From the IMG/VR virus record IMGVR_UViG_3300044730_001215, positions 1-38,844 of that record: a stretch of DNA of 38,844 nucleotides. One strand, 5' to 3'. The position numbers and the translations under genes are program-made. Positions 6,288 to 19,321 of this stretch are shown one piece after another; positions within the stretch are counted from its first letter, which is position 1; every line of letters starts with the position of its first letter. The notes under the pieces are model-generated. The model was not told the DNA's origin. It did not search any database and saw nothing but the letters and a program-made list of their open reading frames with translations. This DNA comes from a virus.

Positions 6288-6513
6288 GCTGTCTCCTGAG
6301 TAGATACTGTTTTGCTGGCCTAACAATCGGCGTTGTTCTTTTATGTTTCAACTTTGAATAGATTATTTCCGCACACTGGTACATGCCAAATTCATCGCGG
6401 CAAGCTGGGTCTATTACGAATTTATCGATACATTCTTGGCACATTGATATTTCGATGTAGCTGCTAGAGCCTTCTAGCCAGCGTTTATCGCATTGGAAAC
6501 AGGCTTTAACCAT
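6196..6513 (-). CDS. Cys-rich protein with basic tail (105 aa)
   Basis: The N-terminal half has two Cys pairs, CFQC (about residues 5-8) and CQEC (about 25-28), then further Cys at 38 and 47, suggesting a zinc ribbon. The C-terminal third is strongly basic (LRRQRERSKTAKNSPSKSR), as in nucleic-acid-binding tails. The ATG overlaps the end of the upstream gene by 8 bp and is preceded by GAGAG. The last 92 bp overlap the start of the next gene in another frame; the basic tail might be partly a by-product of that overlap. Confidence 0.55.
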   Translation of the reverse strand: MVKACFQCDKRWLEGSSSYIEISMCQECIDKFVIDPACRDEFGMYQCAEIIYSKLKHKRTTPIVRPAKQYLLRRQRERSKTAKNSPSKSRNKREKANDVQSAGCI

Positions 6514-6739
6514 TCATTCTCTCCTTTACACTCCGCACCATTGCCTCGGATTGATTAAGCCCTTCGATAACCGTGGATATTATCGCGTCTGTTTTTGGCG
6601 ACAATGCCGCCGCTTCGATTATCGCTTGAGTCATCGCGGCGAAAATTTGCGCGAGATCTAAATGAGGTAATGACGTTTGCACCAGCTTGTGGATGTTGTT
6701 CACTAGCTCACGCATTAATATGTATTGATCGTCTGTCAT
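6506..6739 (-). CDS. small helical protein (77 aa)
   Basis: Not recognised. The whole sequence reads as amphipathic helices (MRELVNNIHKLVQTSL, IFAAMTQAIIEAAAL, AIISTVIEGLNQSEAMV) with no membrane segment and no Cys. The ATG is preceded by GAGG and lies directly after the stop of the small membrane protein gene upstream. It may be a small oligomeric accessory of the recombination genes that precede it in the operon; this rests only on position. Confidence 0.6.
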   Translation of the reverse strand: MTDDQYILMRELVNNIHKLVQTSLPHLDLAQIFAAMTQAIIEAAALSPKTDAIISTVIEGLNQSEAMVRSVKERMNG

Positions 6740-6913
6740 TTAAAACCTCGTAAATTTTAAGATCACTTCAGTTAGTAAAGGGAATGGAAACAGAATGATC
6801 AATATTAAAAAGAAACTCCACTCACTTAGGCCAGCGCCGTGTTTAACGTCTTTGAAGTACCAATTCCATGCGAAGCAAATCCCGCACAACAGATAGATAA
6901 TTAAATAAATCAC
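6740..6913 (-). CDS. small two-helix membrane protein (57 aa)
   Basis: A short gene read from GTG at 6913, which overlaps the ERF stop (GTGA), with GAGGT eight bases upstream. The product has two clear hydrophobic helices: residues 2-16 (IYLIIYLLCGICFAW) and about 33-48 (FFLILIILFPFPLL), separated by a polar loop with Lys and His. It ends one base before the next ATG. An inner-membrane location is expected; the function is unknown. Confidence 0.7.
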   Translation of the reverse strand: MIYLIIYLLCGICFAWNWYFKDVKHGAGLSEWSFFLILIILFPFPLLTEVILKFTRF

Positions 6914-7536
6914 GGCTCATACCTCTTTAAAATAACATCAAATAGATGTTTCTTTTCTTTGTTCATTAACTCTTCATGAATCAATTCGTAATCCTGCTCA
7001 GGCACAGCATTCTTCGCGAGGATTTCTTTAACAGCTTTTTTTTGAGTGCTAGTGCCGGTGTAATATTTGTCATCTAAAACTTTAGGATCTACTGGCTTTT
7101 GGTATTTCTTAGGCTCTTCTTTTTTCGGTTCATCGTTTTTACCTTGTGCCTGATTCGCATCGTCATCGTCATCAGCAACTATGCCAAGCATTGCACATAA
7201 GGAATATCTTTTTAGGTACGTAACAGCGGAACCAACGTCCTGCGGCAAGAGTCCCTTAGGCTTGCACCATGAATCACTTTCCAACCACTGCCCTGATACG
7301 TGGCCTATCCGAGTTTCTACTCCAATCCAACCTTTGTCGGGATCAGATAAAATGCCTTGAATTGCAGATAGTCCGTGCTTTGCCATTACACTTTGAGCTA
7401 CGCCTTTACATGCGAAAAAATCCGCGTATCTTGATTTGAAATGAGGATTAGTACTATCTTTGAGCGCTGGTTGTAACTCGCCTTGCATTGCAGATAGGGC
7501 GGCCTGAATCTCTGTAACTTGTTCTGATGTCCTCAT
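6910..7536 (-). CDS. erf: ERF-family single-strand annealing protein
   Basis: The 208-residue product matches the ERF superfamily (P22 Erf-like recombination proteins): a helical start EIQAALSAMQGELQPALKDS, NPHFKSRYADF, a beta core with GHVSGQWLESD, and the very typical QDVGSAVTYLKRYSLCAMLGIVADDDDDAN. A Lys/Glu/Pro linker and a C-terminal helical domain follow. ERF proteins anneal complementary single strands and can circularise or recombine phage DNA. The ATG at 7536 has GAGAGGA eight bases upstream and starts 3 bp after the previous gene. The pairing with SSB (12,026) and the ERCC4 nuclease is functionally coherent. Confidence 0.93.
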   Translation of the reverse strand: MRTSEQVTEIQAALSAMQGELQPALKDSTNPHFKSRYADFFACKGVAQSVMAKHGLSAIQGILSDPDKGWIGVETRIGHVSGQWLESDSWCKPKGLLPQDVGSAVTYLKRYSLCAMLGIVADDDDDANQAQGKNDEPKKEEPKKYQKPVDPKVLDDKYYTGTSTQKKAVKEILAKNAVPEQDYELIHEELMNKEKKHLFDVILKRYEP

Positions 7537-7538
7537 GT

Positions 7539-8165
7539 TTATAGTCCTCTCAACTGAGTGCCGTAATGAATTCTTGCCCATTTAAAAATCTGGCCGATTG
7601 TCATGTCTTCTTTTAGTTTTTTAGTATCCAACGTGTGGAATGAGACTTGCTGTATATACTCATCTGGCACTCCAAAAAAACTCGCTTGCTCTAGATCGAC
7701 GATGTTCCCAACTGATTTGCTACCTAATGGAAAATCGACTTCTAGTCGCGGCGTACCGTTGCGAGATACAGAAACTTTTTTCCCCAAAGAATCAGTAAAA
7801 GGAATGTTCGGATTGGCTTCGATAATCTCTTTTGTTTTTTCTTCGAATTTATCCAGGACAGATTCAAATCTCGCCTGTTCTTCTGCGATGAATTTCTTTT
7901 GTTCTTTGCACGCTTCAATCATCATTTTGAGATAGCGTTTAAAAGCTTTGCGGCGATCGATACTTTCCTGGATGTTAGCTTGGTGCTCCGAGAATTGAAT
8001 CATTAGCGCGTCACTGATTGATACGCCCTTTTCAATCTCGTCTGCGATTTCATTTAGGCAGATAGCCGCCCACTGTAGGGAAACTTTTGGCTTTGGTTTT
8101 TCACCTGTAATCAAATCGTTGTGTTTGTTTATCGCGTCTGCCATGTAGTCGATAACTTCTTTCAT
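7539..8165 (-). CDS. Gp157-like siphovirus protein
   Basis: The 208-residue product has a long charged helix (about residues 65-115: IDRRKAFKRYLKMMIEACKEQK, then FESVLDKFEEKTKEII). It ends in a beta-rich segment, KKVSVSRNGTPRLEVDF, then VPDEYIQQVSFHTLDTKKLKEDM. This layout resembles the siphovirus Gp157 family, whose C-terminus has the pattern IPEEYxxxxxxxDKxAIKxxLK. It is longer than typical Gp157 because of an N-terminal extension. Gp157-like proteins commonly sit next to the annealing protein, as here, and are thought to assist recombination. It is the first gene of the early operon; GGAGA precedes the ATG. Confidence 0.65.
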   Translation of the reverse strand: MKEVIDYMADAINKHNDLITGEKPKPKVSLQWAAICLNEIADEIEKGVSISDALMIQFSEHQANIQESIDRRKAFKRYLKMMIEACKEQKKFIAEEQARFESVLDKFEEKTKEIIEANPNIPFTDSLGKKVSVSRNGTPRLEVDFPLGSKSVGNIVDLEQASFFGVPDEYIQQVSFHTLDTKKLKEDMTIGQIFKWARIHYGTQLRGL

Positions 8166-8187
8166 TTTATTTCTCCTGATGTTGTGT

Positions 8188-8242
8188 TAGGAATCAATTT
8201 CCTACTATACTTTTTTGCCTAGTTAAACTAGTATTTTATTAT
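8188..8242. promoter_or_regulatory. divergent early control region with two palindromes
   Basis: TAGGAA-N5-TTCCTA (8188-8204) and the odd palindrome CTAGTT-A-AACTAG (8219-8231) lie between the two divergent operons. On the minus strand a -10-like TATAGT (8209-8204) lies between them, so the palindromes would cover the transcription start and the -35 zone. On the plus strand TTGCCT (8215-8220), 16 bases, TATTAT (8237-8242) is a moderate sigma70-type match. The palindromes look like operator sites for a repressor, host or phage, controlling both directions. The exact promoter positions are predictions. Confidence 0.55.
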
Positions 8243-8267
8243 TAAAGATATCGGGGGTTTATAAGAT

Positions 8268-9083
8268 TTGGAAAATATATCTCATATTAGACAGGACTTC
8301 AGTTTTCACAGAAAAATACCAGATATGTCCAAGTCAAAAAGCGCTATTTCCAAACAATACGCGGAAGGATGGGATTTGCGGAGCGCAACGCTTTCTGATT
8401 TCGCGGATACGATAACAAGTCATTGCTGGTCACCAGTTGTATTCAGAAATGGCGTGCGGAAATCGTCTAACTTTTTTCTATCCAGCCTAGTCGCTCTAGA
8501 TTTCGATAGTCCTGAGTACACATTGCGAGATGCTTTGAATGATTGGTGCGATACCATCCACGTTATTGGTACAACTGTTTCTCATCAAAAAGACAAGAAC
8601 GGTATTACCTGCGACAGATTTAGAATCGTTTCAGTTTGGGATAAACCCATTATCAAAGCATCAAATTACAAACCAAATATGAATAAGTTAATTGAAAGCA
8701 ATATGGCTTTTCACGCTGATAAAAGTTGCGTGGATCTCGGCAGATATTTTTTACCATGTAAGGCTATAGTGAGTATTAACGCAGAGGGATATAAAATACA
8801 GACAAAAGAATACGAGGAAATTATTTATGAGGATACAGTTGAAGAAATTGGGGACCTAAGTCAGTTTGCAGTTGACTACTTACACACAAAATTTCCAGAG
8901 GGAAAAAGAAATACTAATACATGGAGATTTGCCAAAGACTTATTTAAAGCTGGATATAATCAAAACGATGTAATCAAAATAATAATTAATGCGCCTACAT
9001 ATAAAGGCGTCATAGACGAATATATAAAAGAGATTGTTTCTACTGTCAAAAGTGCAAGAAAAAACTTTCTTACCAACAAATAG
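8268..9083 (+). CDS. archaeo-eukaryotic-type primase (PrimPol-like)
   Basis: The frame opens with TTG at 8268 after a GGGGG stretch; the next ATG (codon 20) has no ribosome-binding site. The 271-residue product shows the AEP catalytic layout: VALDFDS gives the paired Asp78 and Asp80, VSHQ at 104-107 gives the sxH motif, and CDRFRIV is the following strand. A D-x-GRYFLP element and a C-terminal helical PriCT-like region (about 200-265) follow. It probably synthesises primers for replication by a host polymerase. The SF3 helicase is a separate gene 243 bp downstream, whereas in many D5-type systems the two are fused. Confidence 0.75.
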   Translation: MENISHIRQDFSFHRKIPDMSKSKSAISKQYAEGWDLRSATLSDFADTITSHCWSPVVFRNGVRKSSNFFLSSLVALDFDSPEYTLRDALNDWCDTIHVIGTTVSHQKDKNGITCDRFRIVSVWDKPIIKASNYKPNMNKLIESNMAFHADKSCVDLGRYFLPCKAIVSINAEGYKIQTKEYEEIIYEDTVEEIGDLSQFAVDYLHTKFPEGKRNTNTWRFAKDLFKAGYNQNDVIKIIINAPTYKGVIDEYIKEIVSTVKSARKNFLTNK

Positions 9084-9325
9084 CTAACAGCTTATCCACA
9101 AAACGTCTTAATTTTATGGTTTATTTCTGCTTGACTCTTTTTAGAGACGGTAGCAATCTGGATCATTCAAATCCCGTTAAGACAAAAAAATACTCCCTGT
9201 GTCGCAAAACGTAGGAGTATCTTTAGAAACAAAATGATTGCCTCATATGTGACACGCACTCACCTATATTGTCAATCAAAATTTTTAAAACTTTGTCTTA
9301 GCTTAACCATGTTGTGAGGAAAACT
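9084..9325. other. non-coding gap with DnaA-box match and hairpin
   Basis: About 240 bp without a convincing gene. It contains TTATCCACA (9092-9100), an exact match to the bacterial DnaA-box consensus, and an inverted repeat ATACTCC (9190-9196) / GGAGTAT (9214-9220) with a 17-base loop and no U tract. A region of T and A runs precedes the helicase start. One such 9-mer is expected about 0.3 times in this genome by chance, so the DnaA-box reading is suggestive only. Confidence 0.5.
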
Positions 9326-10630
9326 ATGGAAGCTGCACCGGTCGTAAAACCACGTAAGAAAAAAGTTGAAACCTATCTCGAAGCTATTTTAGGGATTAAT
9401 AATATACATCCCGGACTTCCCCCTTGGCCGCATAAGTTTCACGTCTATGAACCAAAGTCTGGAGTAAAAGAATTATTACTGGAGGGAGATAATCAAGTTG
9501 TATCTTACGTAAGCAAGCAAGCTCTCGTTTCGGTAATAGTCTCTTTTTTTAATTCGTGCGGTAAGAGAAAGCTATATTTAACCCACAGAGAAGCACAAGA
9601 AGTTGCCAATATGTGGATGGCAATGATTGAGCCTATCCAGGAACCAAAAGCTATTTCTTTTAAATCAGATCAAGGTTTGACTTTCCATAGATTGATATTT
9701 GACCTGCCTGAGGCGAGCTTTGAAACGCCTCCATTATTTGAAGAGTTTTTATCACGCTGCTCAAATAATATTGCTCTCTGTGCTTTCATCGGGAGTTTGT
9801 TTGATCCCAAAGCGGACAGACAGCAATATATCTACCTGCATGGCCAAGGACAAAACGGCAAGGGTGCTTTGACATTTCTGTTAAGAAATATACTTGGTCC
9901 ATCCTGCCACACTGATTTCGTCCCAAAAGAATCTCGAATCAATAATTTTTGGACATATTCGTTTCTAGGTAAACGATTAGTAATTTTTCCAGAGTGCGAT
10001 CAGCCCTCATTTCCTAGCTCTGCTTTCTTTAAAACATTGACCGGTGGCGACAGCATCAGGATTGAGAGAAAACATGGCGATGCCTATAGCACCGAGTTGA
10101 TGTGTAAGTTTTTATTCTTAAGTAACGAGGAACTTACCATAAGCGGAGGCATGGCCGACCTTAGGCGCGCGATATTTTGTCATGTAGGTCCAATCAAAGG
10201 GAATCCAGATCCACAGTATTATGCAAACCTTATGCTAGAAGCTCCTAAAATAATAAGGGAATGTATAGATATATACAATAACTTATGTCCAAATCACGGG
10301 CCTATTCCCGTAGAAGAAAAAGCCGAAGCTCAATCATCCATTGTAGATGAAAAATATATTTCTCTTTTTGATAAGTATTTTGTCAAAAGTGAAAACGAGA
10401 ATGACTACGTATCCGCCTCGGATGTTCAGCTAGTTTTTTCTAGAAACAAGATTTTTTCGACAAACATTTGCGGGAAATATTTAGAAAGCTGGAAGAACAA
10501 TATGGGGATAAAAAAGGTAAGAATAAAAGACACCAAAAGGTGGGGGTACTCTGGAATGTCTAAAAAAGATGGCGTTTTTTTAGGCAACTGGACTGATCAC
10601 GATCCGATCGAAGACCGATCAAAATACTGA
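9326..10630 (+). CDS. superfamily 3 helicase (D5/P4-type replicative helicase)
   Basis: I take the ATG at 9326, which has GTGAGGA five bases upstream, over a GTG at 9314. The 434-residue product has the SF3 set: Walker A GQGQNGKG (173-180), Walker B LVIFPECD (218-225), motif C LFLSNEE (263-269) and arginine-finger candidates in ADLRRAI (Arg280, Arg281). In Walker A the residue after Lys is Gly rather than Ser/Thr, a variant. The C-terminal part (about 345-434) looks like a winged-helix DNA-binding region. It would unwind phage DNA at the origin; the GATC-rich candidate origin begins inside its 3' end. Confidence 0.88.
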   Translation: MEAAPVVKPRKKKVETYLEAILGINNIHPGLPPWPHKFHVYEPKSGVKELLLEGDNQVVSYVSKQALVSVIVSFFNSCGKRKLYLTHREAQEVANMWMAMIEPIQEPKAISFKSDQGLTFHRLIFDLPEASFETPPLFEEFLSRCSNNIALCAFIGSLFDPKADRQQYIYLHGQGQNGKGALTFLLRNILGPSCHTDFVPKESRINNFWTYSFLGKRLVIFPECDQPSFPSSAFFKTLTGGDSIRIERKHGDAYSTELMCKFLFLSNEELTISGGMADLRRAIFCHVGPIKGNPDPQYYANLMLEAPKIIRECIDIYNNLCPNHGPIPVEEKAEAQSSIVDEKYISLFDKYFVKSENENDYVSASDVQLVFSRNKIFSTNICGKYLESWKNNMGIKKVRIKDTKRWGYSGMSKKDGVFLGNWTDHDPIEDRSKY

Positions 10631-10879
10631 TCATAAGTCTTTGTTTTTATTAATTATCCGATCAGACTGATCATTTTGACTATATATATACAGAAATTGC
10701 TTTTTAGAGAATAGTGTAAATGACATATATATATATAAAGTTGTATTTTGATCAGTCTGATCAGTATTTCTAAAATATTAAATACTTAGATCAGTTTTTT
10801 GATCAGTATTCGATCAGTATTTGATCAGTACAAAAATTTTTAGATCATATATATGAACCTTTGATTAAATAGTAGGCAA
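10595..10879. repeat. GATC-rich iteron cluster with AT-rich core, candidate replication origin
   Basis: There are 14 GATC tetramers between 10,595 and 10,846, where about one is expected. Within this, GATCAGTATT-like units begin at 10,789, 10,801, 10,812 and 10,823, spaced 11-12 bp, about one helical turn. GATCAGACTGATCA at 10,660 is the inverted counterpart of TGATCAGTCTGATC at 10,749; the two flank a very AT-rich core (10,680-10,745) with alternating TA tracts. Phased repeats next to an AT-rich unwinding-type element beside a helicase gene are what replication origins look like. A cluster of regulator operators upstream of the nuclease operon is the main alternative. Confidence 0.7.
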
Positions 10880-11422
10880 ATGAAGAAAATTTTAGTACCG
10901 GAAATGGTGACCGGAATCGTGGATTCTAGGGAACAAAAGCCATTGGATCTAACGCCTCTAAAAATGGTAAGCGGTAGCCTTCCAACCGCTGATTACAGTG
11001 TGAAGGGTTTGGAACAATCGGTAGCAATCGAGCGCAAGTCTCTACCTGATTTCTTGGGATGCGTTGGCAGGGAACGCGAGAGGTTCGAAAAAGAGATCCA
11101 GAGGCTCTTGGCATACGAGACTAGGGCGATAGTAGTCGAGGCTACTTGGAACGAACTGGAGGCAGCTAATTGGTTAATTGGTCAATACAAATGGAAGTCT
11201 AAAATAACATCGTCGCAAGCGATAGGCTCTGCACTTGGTTGGATAGCGCGAGGAGTGCCTATCATAATGGCAACTAATCACGAAAGATGCTCTCATTTTG
11301 TAGCTAGGTTGCTTTTCACAGCGGCTAGACGGCGATGGGATGAGTTAAAGCACTTTAGGGATTCGATCCAGGATGCCGGTGTCGATTGCAAAACAGGCGT
11401 TCAAATCACTGAGAATGGTTAA
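10880..11422 (+). CDS. ERCC4-type (XPF/Mus81-like) nuclease
   Basis: The 180-residue product carries the ERCC4 nuclease signature: VDSREQ at 14-19, GSLPTADYSV at 32-41, then VAIERKSLPDF, in which Glu51, Arg52, Lys53 and Asp57 form the ERKxxxD core. RFEKEIQRL follows. Family members cut branched or flap DNA, and phage versions occur in replication and recombination cassettes. No HhH2 tandem is visible at the C-terminus, so it is a stand-alone nuclease domain. It lies directly after the candidate origin and its stop overlaps the next small gene (TAATG). Confidence 0.9.
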   Translation: MKKILVPEMVTGIVDSREQKPLDLTPLKMVSGSLPTADYSVKGLEQSVAIERKSLPDFLGCVGRERERFEKEIQRLLAYETRAIVVEATWNELEAANWLIGQYKWKSKITSSQAIGSALGWIARGVPIIMATNHERCSHFVARLLFTAARRRWDELKHFRDSIQDAGVDCKTGVQITENG

Positions 11423-11506: not shown

Positions 11507-11983
11507 ATGAGTTTAGAATATTATAAAAAGTTTGGAGCAGTTAGGCTAAAAGAAATCATCCAAGCTGGCGATTGTTTTCTAATTAAGCTTGATTGTCCTA
11601 AATGCAAAAATGAATTTTTATGTGATTACGAAAAAGCTATTTGTCCAGAATGTGATCTTAGTATCAAAGACATTCCAATAGTTGAACCTAAAAGAGGTGA
11701 CTATAGACTTCTTGCTGGAACAAGGCGCCGCCGTATTTTCGGCAAAAAGACAATCCAAAATCTTTTAGATATTCAGAACAGAGAGTGTGCTTATTGCGCA
11801 ATTGACATATCTAATATTGATTTTCATGTTGATCATATAAAGCCAGTATCTTTTGGTGGAAGTAACTCTTTAAATAACTTGGTTATATCTTGTCCTCAAT
11901 GCAATTTGACGGCCTATTCATTTGTATTTAAAGACTTTTACGCAAAAAAAGAATTCATCTTAAATAAGAGATTTGGTTATTAA
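11507..11983 (+). CDS. HNH endonuclease with N-terminal zinc ribbon
   Basis: The ATG at 11,507 has AGAAAGGA upstream and gives 158 residues. Cys30, Cys33, Cys46 and Cys49 form a zinc ribbon. The HNH domain has CAYC (94-97), the HVDHIKPVSFGG core with Asp109-His110, Asn123-124, and CPQC (129-132). This is the McrA-like HNH fold. It may be a free-standing homing nuclease or a packaging helper; its place inside the replication genes favours a selfish or accessory nuclease. The base composition looks slightly more AT-rich than its neighbours. Confidence 0.85.
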   Translation: MSLEYYKKFGAVRLKEIIQAGDCFLIKLDCPKCKNEFLCDYEKAICPECDLSIKDIPIVEPKRGDYRLLAGTRRRRIFGKKTIQNLLDIQNRECAYCAIDISNIDFHVDHIKPVSFGGSNSLNNLVISCPQCNLTAYSFVFKDFYAKKEFILNKRFGY

Positions 11984-12025
11984 ACATTTTGGCGATTCAA
12001 TTCAGAATCCCATTAAGGAGATAAA

Positions 12026-12397
12026 ATGAGTTTTTCAAAAGTGATCATTGTAGGAAGAGTAGGGAAAACCCCAGAGATGTTTAAATCGAAGGCAGGCGAG
12101 GATATCGCTAAGTTCTCGGTTGCCACGTCTAAGAAGTCTGGCGGACAGGAAGTGGTAAGTTGGCACAACGTGGTGTGCTTTAAAAAGACTGCTGAAAATG
12201 TAGGCAAGTATCTCGCGAAGGGTTCGATGGTAGCGATCGATGGCGAGCTTTCATATAGCACCTATGACAATAAAGATGGTGTTAAAATGTACAGGACAGA
12301 TATCGTTGCAAACTCTGTGCAGTTTCTGACTAAGCCAGTTGGACAGGCAGAGGCAGCGCAATCGGATGACGCGGAATCATCGGAAATCCCGTTCTGA
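12026..12397 (+). CDS. ssb: single-stranded DNA-binding protein (SSB)
   Basis: The 123-residue product is a typical bacterial-type SSB with one OB fold. VIIVGRVGKTPEM is the first strand pair, FSVATSK and SWHNVVCF with TAENVGKYLAKGSMVAIDGEL follow, and the acidic tail ends DDAESSEIPF. The terminal IPF is the peptide that binds partner proteins in the SSB family. AAGGAG precedes the ATG. It would coat single strands made by the helicase and hand them to the ERF annealing protein. Confidence 0.95.
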   Translation: MSFSKVIIVGRVGKTPEMFKSKAGEDIAKFSVATSKKSGGQEVVSWHNVVCFKKTAENVGKYLAKGSMVAIDGELSYSTYDNKDGVKMYRTDIVANSVQFLTKPVGQAEAAQSDDAESSEIPF

Positions 12398-17505: not shown

Positions 17506-17833
17506 GAAGATTCTAGATTACATAAAGGAGCGCACACTATCAGGCGTGGGAATAAAAGGCGGGCGAAGGTTTAACTTCCCTGCCTATTCTGATTCCTATG
17601 TAAAGTCAGCAGCTTTTAAGGCAGCAGGTAAATCAAAGAACGAGGTAAACCTAAAGCTATCAGGCGAGATGCTTGAAGAGATGCGTATCTTATCTGCTAG
17701 GGGTAATCAGATACTAATCGGCTTTGAAAACGGAACACTCTCAAACGATAAAGCAGATGGTAATAGCAAAACACGGCCATTTCTTGGTATAAATAAATCA
17801 GAGTTAAATGAAATACTAAAGGAATTCAAATGA
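17429..17833 (+). CDS. neck (tail-completion / HK97 gp10-like) protein, copy 1
   Basis: Starts at an ATG inside the portal gene (17,429 preferred; 17,438 is possible) and gives about 134 residues. The conserved region has ERTLSGVGIKGGRRFNF, then YSDSYVK, KLSGEMLEEM and RPFLGIN. The same pattern, IKxRTxSGxGxxGG ... LxxSGxML ... RPF, occurs in the protein at 19,482, so these are paralogs. It resembles the HK97 gp10/virion morphogenesis class of neck or tail-completion proteins that join head and tail. It overlaps the methyltransferase gene by 4 bp. Confidence 0.65.
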   Translation: MAWMRTKVEIPEDLDLAKDEKEVLAEKILDYIKERTLSGVGIKGGRRFNFPAYSDSYVKSAAFKAAGKSKNEVNLKLSGEMLEEMRILSARGNQILIGFENGTLSNDKADGNSKTRPFLGINKSELNEILKEFK

Positions 17834-19014
17834 TCTTTCACGGCGATTGCCTTGAAAAAATGAAAGACTTGGAATCAGATTCAATTGATTCTCTTGTAAC
17901 CGATCCGCCTGCTGGTATTTCTTTTATGGGTAAAGCCTGGGACGGCGATAAAGGCGGTAGAGATCAATGGGTTTCTTGGATGACTGAAGTTATGCAGGAA
18001 TGTCTGCGGGTATTAAAGCCAGGTGCTCACGGTTTAGTTTGGGCTTTGCCACGTACTTCGCACTGGACTGCAATAGCTTTAGAAAATGCAGGATTTGAGG
18101 TCAGAGATGTTGTTACCCATTTGTTTGGTACAGGATTTCCTAAGTCGCTAGATATTAGTAAGGCGATTGATAAGGCAGCTGGGGCTGAAAGAGAAGTTAT
18201 CGGAAAAAAACCGTATAGCAATCAGGACACAAGAGGAAACCCGATAAGCAAAACAGGTGGATGGGGAACAGGTCTAGGACAAGACAAGGAACGTTTGCAA
18301 TTAGATGTAACAGCCCCCGCCACCGATGCCGCCAAAAAATGGCAAGGCTACGGTACGGCTCTTAAGCCAGCTAGTGAGCATTGGATATTAATCAGAAAAC
18401 CACTGTCAGAAAAAACTGTAGCTGCAAATGTTTTAAAGCATGGGACGGGTGGTATTAATATTGATGGTTGTAGGATAGGCACTGAGGTTAGATACAACGG
18501 TCCTGCATCAACTAATACGGTTCAGACTATGGGACGCCCAGAACATTCTGGAAGTGGCTGGAACAAAGACTATCAATGCAGTAATGTTACAGGCCGCTTC
18601 CCTGCCAACCTAGTCCTAGACGAGCATGCAGCTGAGTTGCTGGATGGGCAGAGTGGGGTTTTAAAGAGCGGTGACTTGAAACCATATAAAAATACAGAAA
18701 ACGTGGATTTTAAGAGTGGGTTAAAATTTGAAACAGCAAATAGGCAAGGCGATTCAGGCGGCGCTTCCCGTTTCTTCTACGTAGCCAAGGCATCAAAATC
18801 AGACAAGGGCGCAGACAACACCCATCCTACAGTTAAAAGCACAAAGCTAATGGAATACTTGATCAAACTAATTACACCAACAGGTGGAACTGTACTTGAT
18901 CCATTTGCCGGATCAGGTTCAACACTGGTTTCAGCTAAAAACTTAGGCTTCAATTTTATCGGTGTTGAACAAAATAAAGAATACTTTGACATAATAGAAT
19001 CGAGGATCAAATGA
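17830..19014 (+). CDS. DNA methyltransferase, N6-adenine/N4-cytosine type (beta class order)
   Basis: The 394-residue product has the catalytic motif DPPA (25-28 in TDPPAGISFMGKAWD) near the N-terminus and the SAM-binding motif LDPFAGSGSTL (about 356-366) near the C-terminus, the beta-class order. DPPA in place of DPPY is a known phage variant. A long middle region (about 130-330) is likely the target-recognition part. It probably protects phage DNA from host restriction or marks it. Its site is unknown; the GATC-rich origin makes adenine methylation of GATC worth testing. It is unusual for it to lie between two neck protein genes. Confidence 0.92.
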   Translation: MIFHGDCLEKMKDLESDSIDSLVTDPPAGISFMGKAWDGDKGGRDQWVSWMTEVMQECLRVLKPGAHGLVWALPRTSHWTAIALENAGFEVRDVVTHLFGTGFPKSLDISKAIDKAAGAEREVIGKKPYSNQDTRGNPISKTGGWGTGLGQDKERLQLDVTAPATDAAKKWQGYGTALKPASEHWILIRKPLSEKTVAANVLKHGTGGINIDGCRIGTEVRYNGPASTNTVQTMGRPEHSGSGWNKDYQCSNVTGRFPANLVLDEHAAELLDGQSGVLKSGDLKPYKNTENVDFKSGLKFETANRQGDSGGASRFFYVAKASKSDKGADNTHPTVKSTKLMEYLIKLITPTGGTVLDPFAGSGSTLVSAKNLGFNFIGVEQNKEYFDIIESRIK

Positions 19015-19157
19015 GGCTTTTTTTATTGCCTATAAATCTATTCTTATCTTTGTTGCTAACTTTATTCAAAAAATCCTTTGAAATAAAGGTGCATGTCTCA
19101 TCTGGAGAAAAAGTAATTTTTGATTATGGCTATAAAAAAACCACGGAGTTTCAATGA
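19011..19157 (+). CDS. small membrane-anchored protein (48 aa)
   Basis: A 48-residue frame overlapping the methyltransferase stop (ATGA). The N-terminus is one membrane helix (about residues 2-19, RLFLLPINLFLSLLLTLF), followed by a short beta-rich tail FEIKVHVSSGEKVIFDYGY. It overlaps the next gene by 4 bp, so it is part of a chain of coupled small genes. No function is recognised. Confidence 0.55.
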   Translation: MRLFLLPINLFLSLLLTLFKKSFEIKVHVSSGEKVIFDYGYKKTTEFQ

Positions 19158-19321
19158 AGTGCGAGAAGTGCATCTACTTTGATGATGATGTATGTAAGCG
19201 TTATCCTCCTGCGATATCTGCAGCTATGGATAGCAGCGACGAACTTATTCCCTTTCTTGGATATCCTTCCGTTGAGCCAGATGATTGGTGCGGAGAATTC
19301 AAAGCAGAGGCGAAGCATTGA
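19154..19321 (+). CDS. small Cys-cluster protein (55 aa)
   Basis: The ATG overlaps the previous stop (ATGA). Four Cys are arranged as CEKC (3-6), Cys14 in CKRYPP, and WCGEF near the C-terminus. This C-x2-C ... C-x-RYPP ... DDWCGEF pattern occurs in many tiny phage proteins and is taken as a metal- or cluster-binding fold. The function is unknown. It overlaps the next gene by 4 bp. Confidence 0.6.
   Translation: MKCEKCIYFDDDVCKRYPPAISAAMDSSDELIPFLGYPSVEPDDWCGEFKAEAKH

Follow-up and report, generated by a model that had tools for sequence, protein, structure and literature searches.

The origin of phage P4, the ori of the alpha protein, is an iteron origin, and P4 ori and crr are two separated elements. 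The alpha protein itself fuses a Toprim primase to a P4-family helicase (TIGR01613), and P4 is also discussed in PMC4234260. Among the Primase_Cterm helicases, Rep of SaPI and Cch2 of SCCmec use the C-terminal domain to recognise iterons placed immediately behind the gene that encodes them, and binding of two hexamers has been proposed for the SaPI origins (PMC7581432, which cites Ubeda et al., 2007 for the SaPI Rep origin). The isolated C-terminal domain of Cch2 binds the direct repeats past its own gene, where the putative origin has only three AAGTG repeats and a mirror-symmetric double array is not described (PMC7581432). Similarly, ORF904 of pRN1 is an SF3 helicase with a C-terminal winged helix and has its origin directly downstream, in the form of a 100-nt stem-loop without iterons (PMC4234260). 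As for Sfi21-type phage origins, nothing directly usable as a further precedent was found in the literature searched.

The stretch of DNA analysed here, referred to as the window, is the 38,844-base IMG/VR virus record IMGVR_UViG_3300044730_001215. It carries an array of GATC-centred iterons which is very probably the replication origin of the phage and would be recognised by the predicted C-terminal winged-helix domain of the SF3 helicase encoded just upstream. The gene of this helicase, the proposed initiator (9314..10630, plus strand), was assigned by profile matches to the P4 primase C-terminal family (DUF5906). The protein scored 57 bits against PF19263, above the cut-off of 27.6, and 66 bits (E 2.6e-18) against TIGR01613, which is below the curated cut-off of 108.7; its Walker A motif reads HGQGQNGKGA. 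Its upstream partner is a small primase-type protein of 271 aa (8268..9083, plus strand; phrog_2135 'DNA primase', E 3.8e-12), and the next gene after the array encodes an ERCC4-type nuclease (10880..11422, plus strand; PF02732, E 5.4e-7, and phrog_3490). The gene order thus runs primase-like protein, SF3 helicase, array, ERCC4 nuclease, HNH, and SSB, while the opposite strand, to the left of the primase, helicase, and array stretch, encodes an Erf annealing protein and has a Gam-like match, which is weak. These surroundings place the array inside the replication module, directly behind the most plausible initiator. A blastn search of window 9314-11422 against phages gave no match.

The array comprises 14 GATC sites (10595, 10601, 10606, 10617, 10629, 10660, 10669, 10750, 10759, 10789, 10801, 10812, 10823, and 10843) within 252 bp (10595-10846), where the window background of 4.4 per kb would give about 1.1. 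No other 252 bp of the window has more than 6 sites, simulated Markov sequences reached a maximum of 7 (order-1) or 9 (order-3), and the array is the strongest 7-mer cluster in the window. Its units share TTTTGATCRGTNTT when read outward from the centre; the minus strand carries the units left of the AT-rich core and the plus strand those on its right, and all of them point away from the core. The left arm of outer units (10595..10632, minus strand) overlaps the 3' end of the helicase gene, with the first four GATC sites (10595-10620) within the last codons of the ORF and the fifth (10629-10632) across the stop codon. The left inner tandem iteron pair (10660..10673, minus strand) is a GATCA module with the units 9 bp apart and forms the element GATCAGACTGATCA. 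It is followed by the core (10674..10749), which is 82% AT, has TATATATATA on both sides, and is likely the DNA-unwinding element. The right inner tandem pair (10749..10766, plus strand) mirrors the left one with the same distance of 9 bp, and its element TGATCAGTCTGATC at 10749-10762 stands opposite to GATCAGACTGATCA. The right arm (10789..10832, plus strand) consists of four outer GATCAGT units 11-12 bp apart and is 80% complementary to 10589-10632, and a degenerate GATC (GATCATAT; 10843..10846, plus strand) forms a weak outermost unit.

The spacings are mirrored across the core, reading 11-12-31-9 (left) and 9-30-12-11-11 (right), and the dyad axis of the whole array lies at 10710.5-10711. 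A mirror partner within 1 bp exists for 12 of the 14 GATC sites, a number reached in 0.2% of random-placement trials. With the spacings of 11-12 and 30-31 bp the units are placed roughly on one helix face; the 9-bp pairs are less well phased. An earlier note, made by a model from the letters of this DNA, had pointed to the 14 sites, to four units 11-12 bp apart (they are those at 10789, 10801, 10812, and 10823, spaced 12, 11, and 11), to mirror-image elements around a TA-rich core, and to a beginning of the cluster in the 3' end of the helicase gene. All of these were found; the symmetry was understated, as the whole array is a dyad near 10711.

The array is conserved in a relative, IMGVR_UViG_3300008108_000164 (36,094 bases; here G001), which is colinear with the window apart from a circular permutation and whose helicase shares 76% amino acid identity with that of the window. 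Over the region of interest, a further record, IMGVR_UViG_3300042691_030813, has the same sequence as G001 and hence is not independent. In G001 the layout is kept, with spacings of 11-11-12-31-9 before the core and 9-30-20-10 after it, and 11 GATC units are present, among which GATCGGT is commoner than GATCAGT. Identity between the two phages is 95% for the GATC letters, as against 66-71% for the other array letters and 46% for the third codon positions of the helicase gene.

If the array is the binding region of the helicase, divergent helicases would be predicted to have an array in the same place with another word. Terminase-based searches supplied four more contigs that include the 3' end of an SF3 helicase gene, from divergent phages which share the terminase family of the window. 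In every one of them the helicase 3' end is the site of the strongest 7-mer cluster found in the entire locus. The words are GTAGACA (L145), TGACAGA (L163), CAACACT (L214), and CTAACCA (L219), none of them with GATC, and each locus presents two tandem pairs, the second inverted, on either side of an AT-rich core of ~72-119 bp. Searching with a detector of this mirror module returned one module in each of the six loci, none elsewhere in those loci, none in shuffles, and a single match in 1.95 Mb of other loci, situated in a locus chosen for its GATC repeats. As the detector was designed after seeing the discovery loci, it was applied unchanged to a new set obtained by helicase similarity, consisting of 77 further SF3 helicase loci (612 kb, two discovery duplicates left out). 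Here 11 modules were detected, all of them 3-157 bp past the helicase stop and none elsewhere in the 612 kb, and these amount to only about four word families because several loci are near-identical. The strict module was absent from the other 66 of the 77 loci, and likewise from eight other SF3 loci (phiSAJS1, Gordon, RR1-A, JCL1032, Geonosis, Nonnen-W8red 1, ctKpZ937, and plasmid pAACI03). Strong 7-mer clusters of any layout were located at the helicase 3' end in 27 of 40 cases (binomial about 6e-14, with near-identical loci counted separately).

Repeat clusters in other positions were also observed. In Streptomyces phage phiSAJS1 (L225:3253-3559), plasmid pAACI03 (L229:2343-2634), and phage ctKpZ937 (L232:1796-2127) the SF3 helicase gene is immediately preceded, on its 5' side, by the strongest repeat cluster, and these clusters are candidate origins of a different layout. 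The sole background match of the detector (L015, Anabaena azotica FACHB-119 contig35, 7220-7460) consists of densely packed TGATCA/GATCAGTTGTGATCAGTTGATCAGT repeats within a long ORF of the minus strand (6496-7998); it resembles an in-gene repeat array and is possibly a plasmid or prophage Rep origin. Scans for the iteron pattern by itself gave two irrelevant viral matches, one a low-complexity coding repeat (L005) and the other a short repeat (L006).

The proposed iteron binder is a predicted winged-helix domain at about residues 344-425 of the helicase (10343..10588, plus strand). An AlphaFold2 model of the C-terminal fragment had a mean pLDDT of 70.6, with about 72-87 over the domain, and the topology H-b-b-H-H-b-b-b; the full-length helicase model (pLDDT 36.5) was unusable. 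In VIA-align, the best matches of the domain model were the RFX winged helices, which are DNA-binding domains (Z 8.5/7.5), and the P4 origin-binding domain 1ka8 aligned over 77 residues with Z 6.1 and rmsd 3.0, which is within the generic winged-helix range; Z values under 8 may reflect the common fold only. Foldseek gave no match under E 0.001.

The iteron word changes together with this domain. In a comparison of 31 helicase loci that have an array, none of the 404 helicase pairs with less than 35% C-terminal identity shared an iteron, as compared with 12 of the 25 pairs at 50% or more, and the pairs that share a word have a C-terminal identity of 61% or more. For example, in the pairs L297/L312 and L311/L312 the helicase core is 82-86% identical, the C-terminal 110 residues are 54-55% identical, and the words differ. 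This tracking fits recognition by the C-terminal domain, and the correlation is to be taken as support and not as proof because shared ancestry confounds it.

Compared with the described systems, the window array possesses every feature of the SaPI Rep and Cch2 kind which can be tested in a sequence, namely a P4-type helicase upstream, iterons 3' of its gene or overlapping it, an AT-rich segment, and a predicted winged helix; it would function like these, with binding by the helicase and initiation being inferred. As in the SaPI5-type Rep (Primase_Cterm), the iterons are right downstream of the helicase gene and a primase adjoins, and the helicase is of the same superfamily as SaPI Rep, with a C-terminal DNA-binding domain that is predicted in the window. 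However, SaPI is a satellite island, whereas the window is a tailed-phage genome with a GATC-centred word. Cch2 is a P4-type Primase_Cterm helicase as well, but its three repeats contrast with the mirror array of the window. The window helicase resembles P4 alpha in its family, and 1KA8 aligns to its C-terminal domain as one among many winged helices; it differs in having a separate primase and one compact mirror array after the helicase gene. With pRN1 it shares the position of the origin directly behind the gene, the iteron array taking the place of the stem-loop. Since GATC would be a part of the recognition word, the array can be regarded as a clear new example of the origin type known from P4 and the staphylococcal islands.

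Initiation at the array could then be envisaged as follows. With its C-terminal winged-helix domain the helicase would bind the TTTTGATCRGTNTT iterons, and the inner tandem pairs flanking the AT-rich core would each seat one hexamer, in opposite orientation. The outer units, about one helical turn apart, would raise the local concentration of the initiator. The core would melt, the two helicases would depart in opposite directions, giving bidirectional initiation, and the neighbouring primase and SSB would start the synthesis.

The dense GATC sites invite another explanation, a methylation-gated origin, in which Dam-like GATC methylation by the phage or the host controls the binding of the initiator or of SeqA-type proteins as in E. 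coli oriC. The earlier note had suggested that methylation could set the firing and had mentioned that the phage carries a methyltransferase; there is in fact an N6/N4-type DNA methyltransferase at 17830-19014, with CcrM and DpnA types among its best relatives of solved structure, and GATC is the centre and the best-conserved part of every unit. However, G001 retains its 11 GATC units without this gene (72 bp stand there in place of window 17833-19226, and the protein search was also negative), the other phages have a similar layout with GATC-free iterons, and in 75 related loci GATC is depleted at the equivalent site, the helicase 3' end and stop (3.96 vs 5.69 per kb). Such gating is hence very improbable. 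While oriC keeps GATC apart from the initiator word, here it is inside every iteron, and no DnaA-type protein was seen among the window proteins scanned. The claim of an origin with iterons, an AT-rich core, and an SF3 helicase neighbour finds good support in the comparison, and the oriC likeness and the methylation control do not; nor is such an origin unusual for this kind of phage, as repeat clusters are common at SF3 helicase 3' ends. Cumulative GC skew, also suggested as a check, was rejected as an origin locator, as its minimum at 7923 (7.9 kb) follows the switch of gene strand and not the array, and the gene-by-gene third-position skew was noisy. Over the whole genomes, GATC counts are slightly below the maximal-order Markov estimate (184 vs 201 in the window, 137 vs 164 in G001), and the window count is above that of a dinucleotide shuffle (133). 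The dense GATC sites look like a part of the recognition word rather than a methylation switch, present here because GATC is the centre of the iteron in this lineage. For the same reason, as every iteron is GATC-centred, methylation by a host Dam-like or an acquired phage enzyme might alter the affinity of the initiator; if true, the lineage of the window would be methylation-sensitive while the wider class of SF3 origins is not, which we consider very unlikely.

Other functions can be weighed against that of an origin. The array lies between two co-directional genes and includes one weak sigma-70-like site (10748-10776, 9/12), and repeats can bind regulators, which would suit an operator or promoter array through which a phage regulator controls either the helicase gene or the operon of the ERCC4 nuclease, with no origin function. 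This is very improbable, given that promoter-like matches in 8-12 kb are fewer than the average of shuffled sequences (7 vs 12.6), that the arrays follow the helicase gene across phages with a word that varies with the helicase C-terminal domain, and that an AT-rich core flanked by mirrored arms is suited to unwinding; autoregulation could operate alongside the origin function. Iteron clusters occur at plasmid centromeres too, and a centromere-like partition site or a pac-like packaging site might look alike. Yet the scan of window proteins, which covered a part of the ORFs, revealed no gene of ParA/ParB type, the terminase is 3.6 kb off, and the arrays associate with SF3 helicase 3' ends, which makes such a site exceedingly unlikely.

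With the array read as a helicase-recognised origin, a rule for many uncultured tailed phages would be to seek the repeat cluster directly behind the SF3/P4-family helicase gene, which in some lineages has a tandem iteron pair on each side of an AT-rich core, one the mirror image of the other. As iteron word and helicase C-terminal domain change together, the initiator and its origin may often be paired from sequence alone, and such pairs are natural material to decode the DNA choice of winged helices. For the phage of the window, an ordinary and testable origin would take the place of the methylation-switch story.

Some further observations concern the surrounding genes. The methyltransferase of the window has conserved parts at 1-65 and 325-394 with a long insert between them. 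In G001 and G002, an HNH-like ORF (L003:6553-7110, judged by eye), possibly a homing endonuclease, separates the array from the ERCC4 nuclease gene; the window is without it. The intergenic region from which the Gam/Erf operon and the primase gene diverge (window 8162-8262) is 95% identical to that of G001, far more alike than the surrounding genes, and is probably a shared control region. Likewise, the SSB gene region (window 11980-12339) has 93% DNA identity to G001, as against near 70-75% for most genes, which suggests either a recent exchange or a strong constraint.
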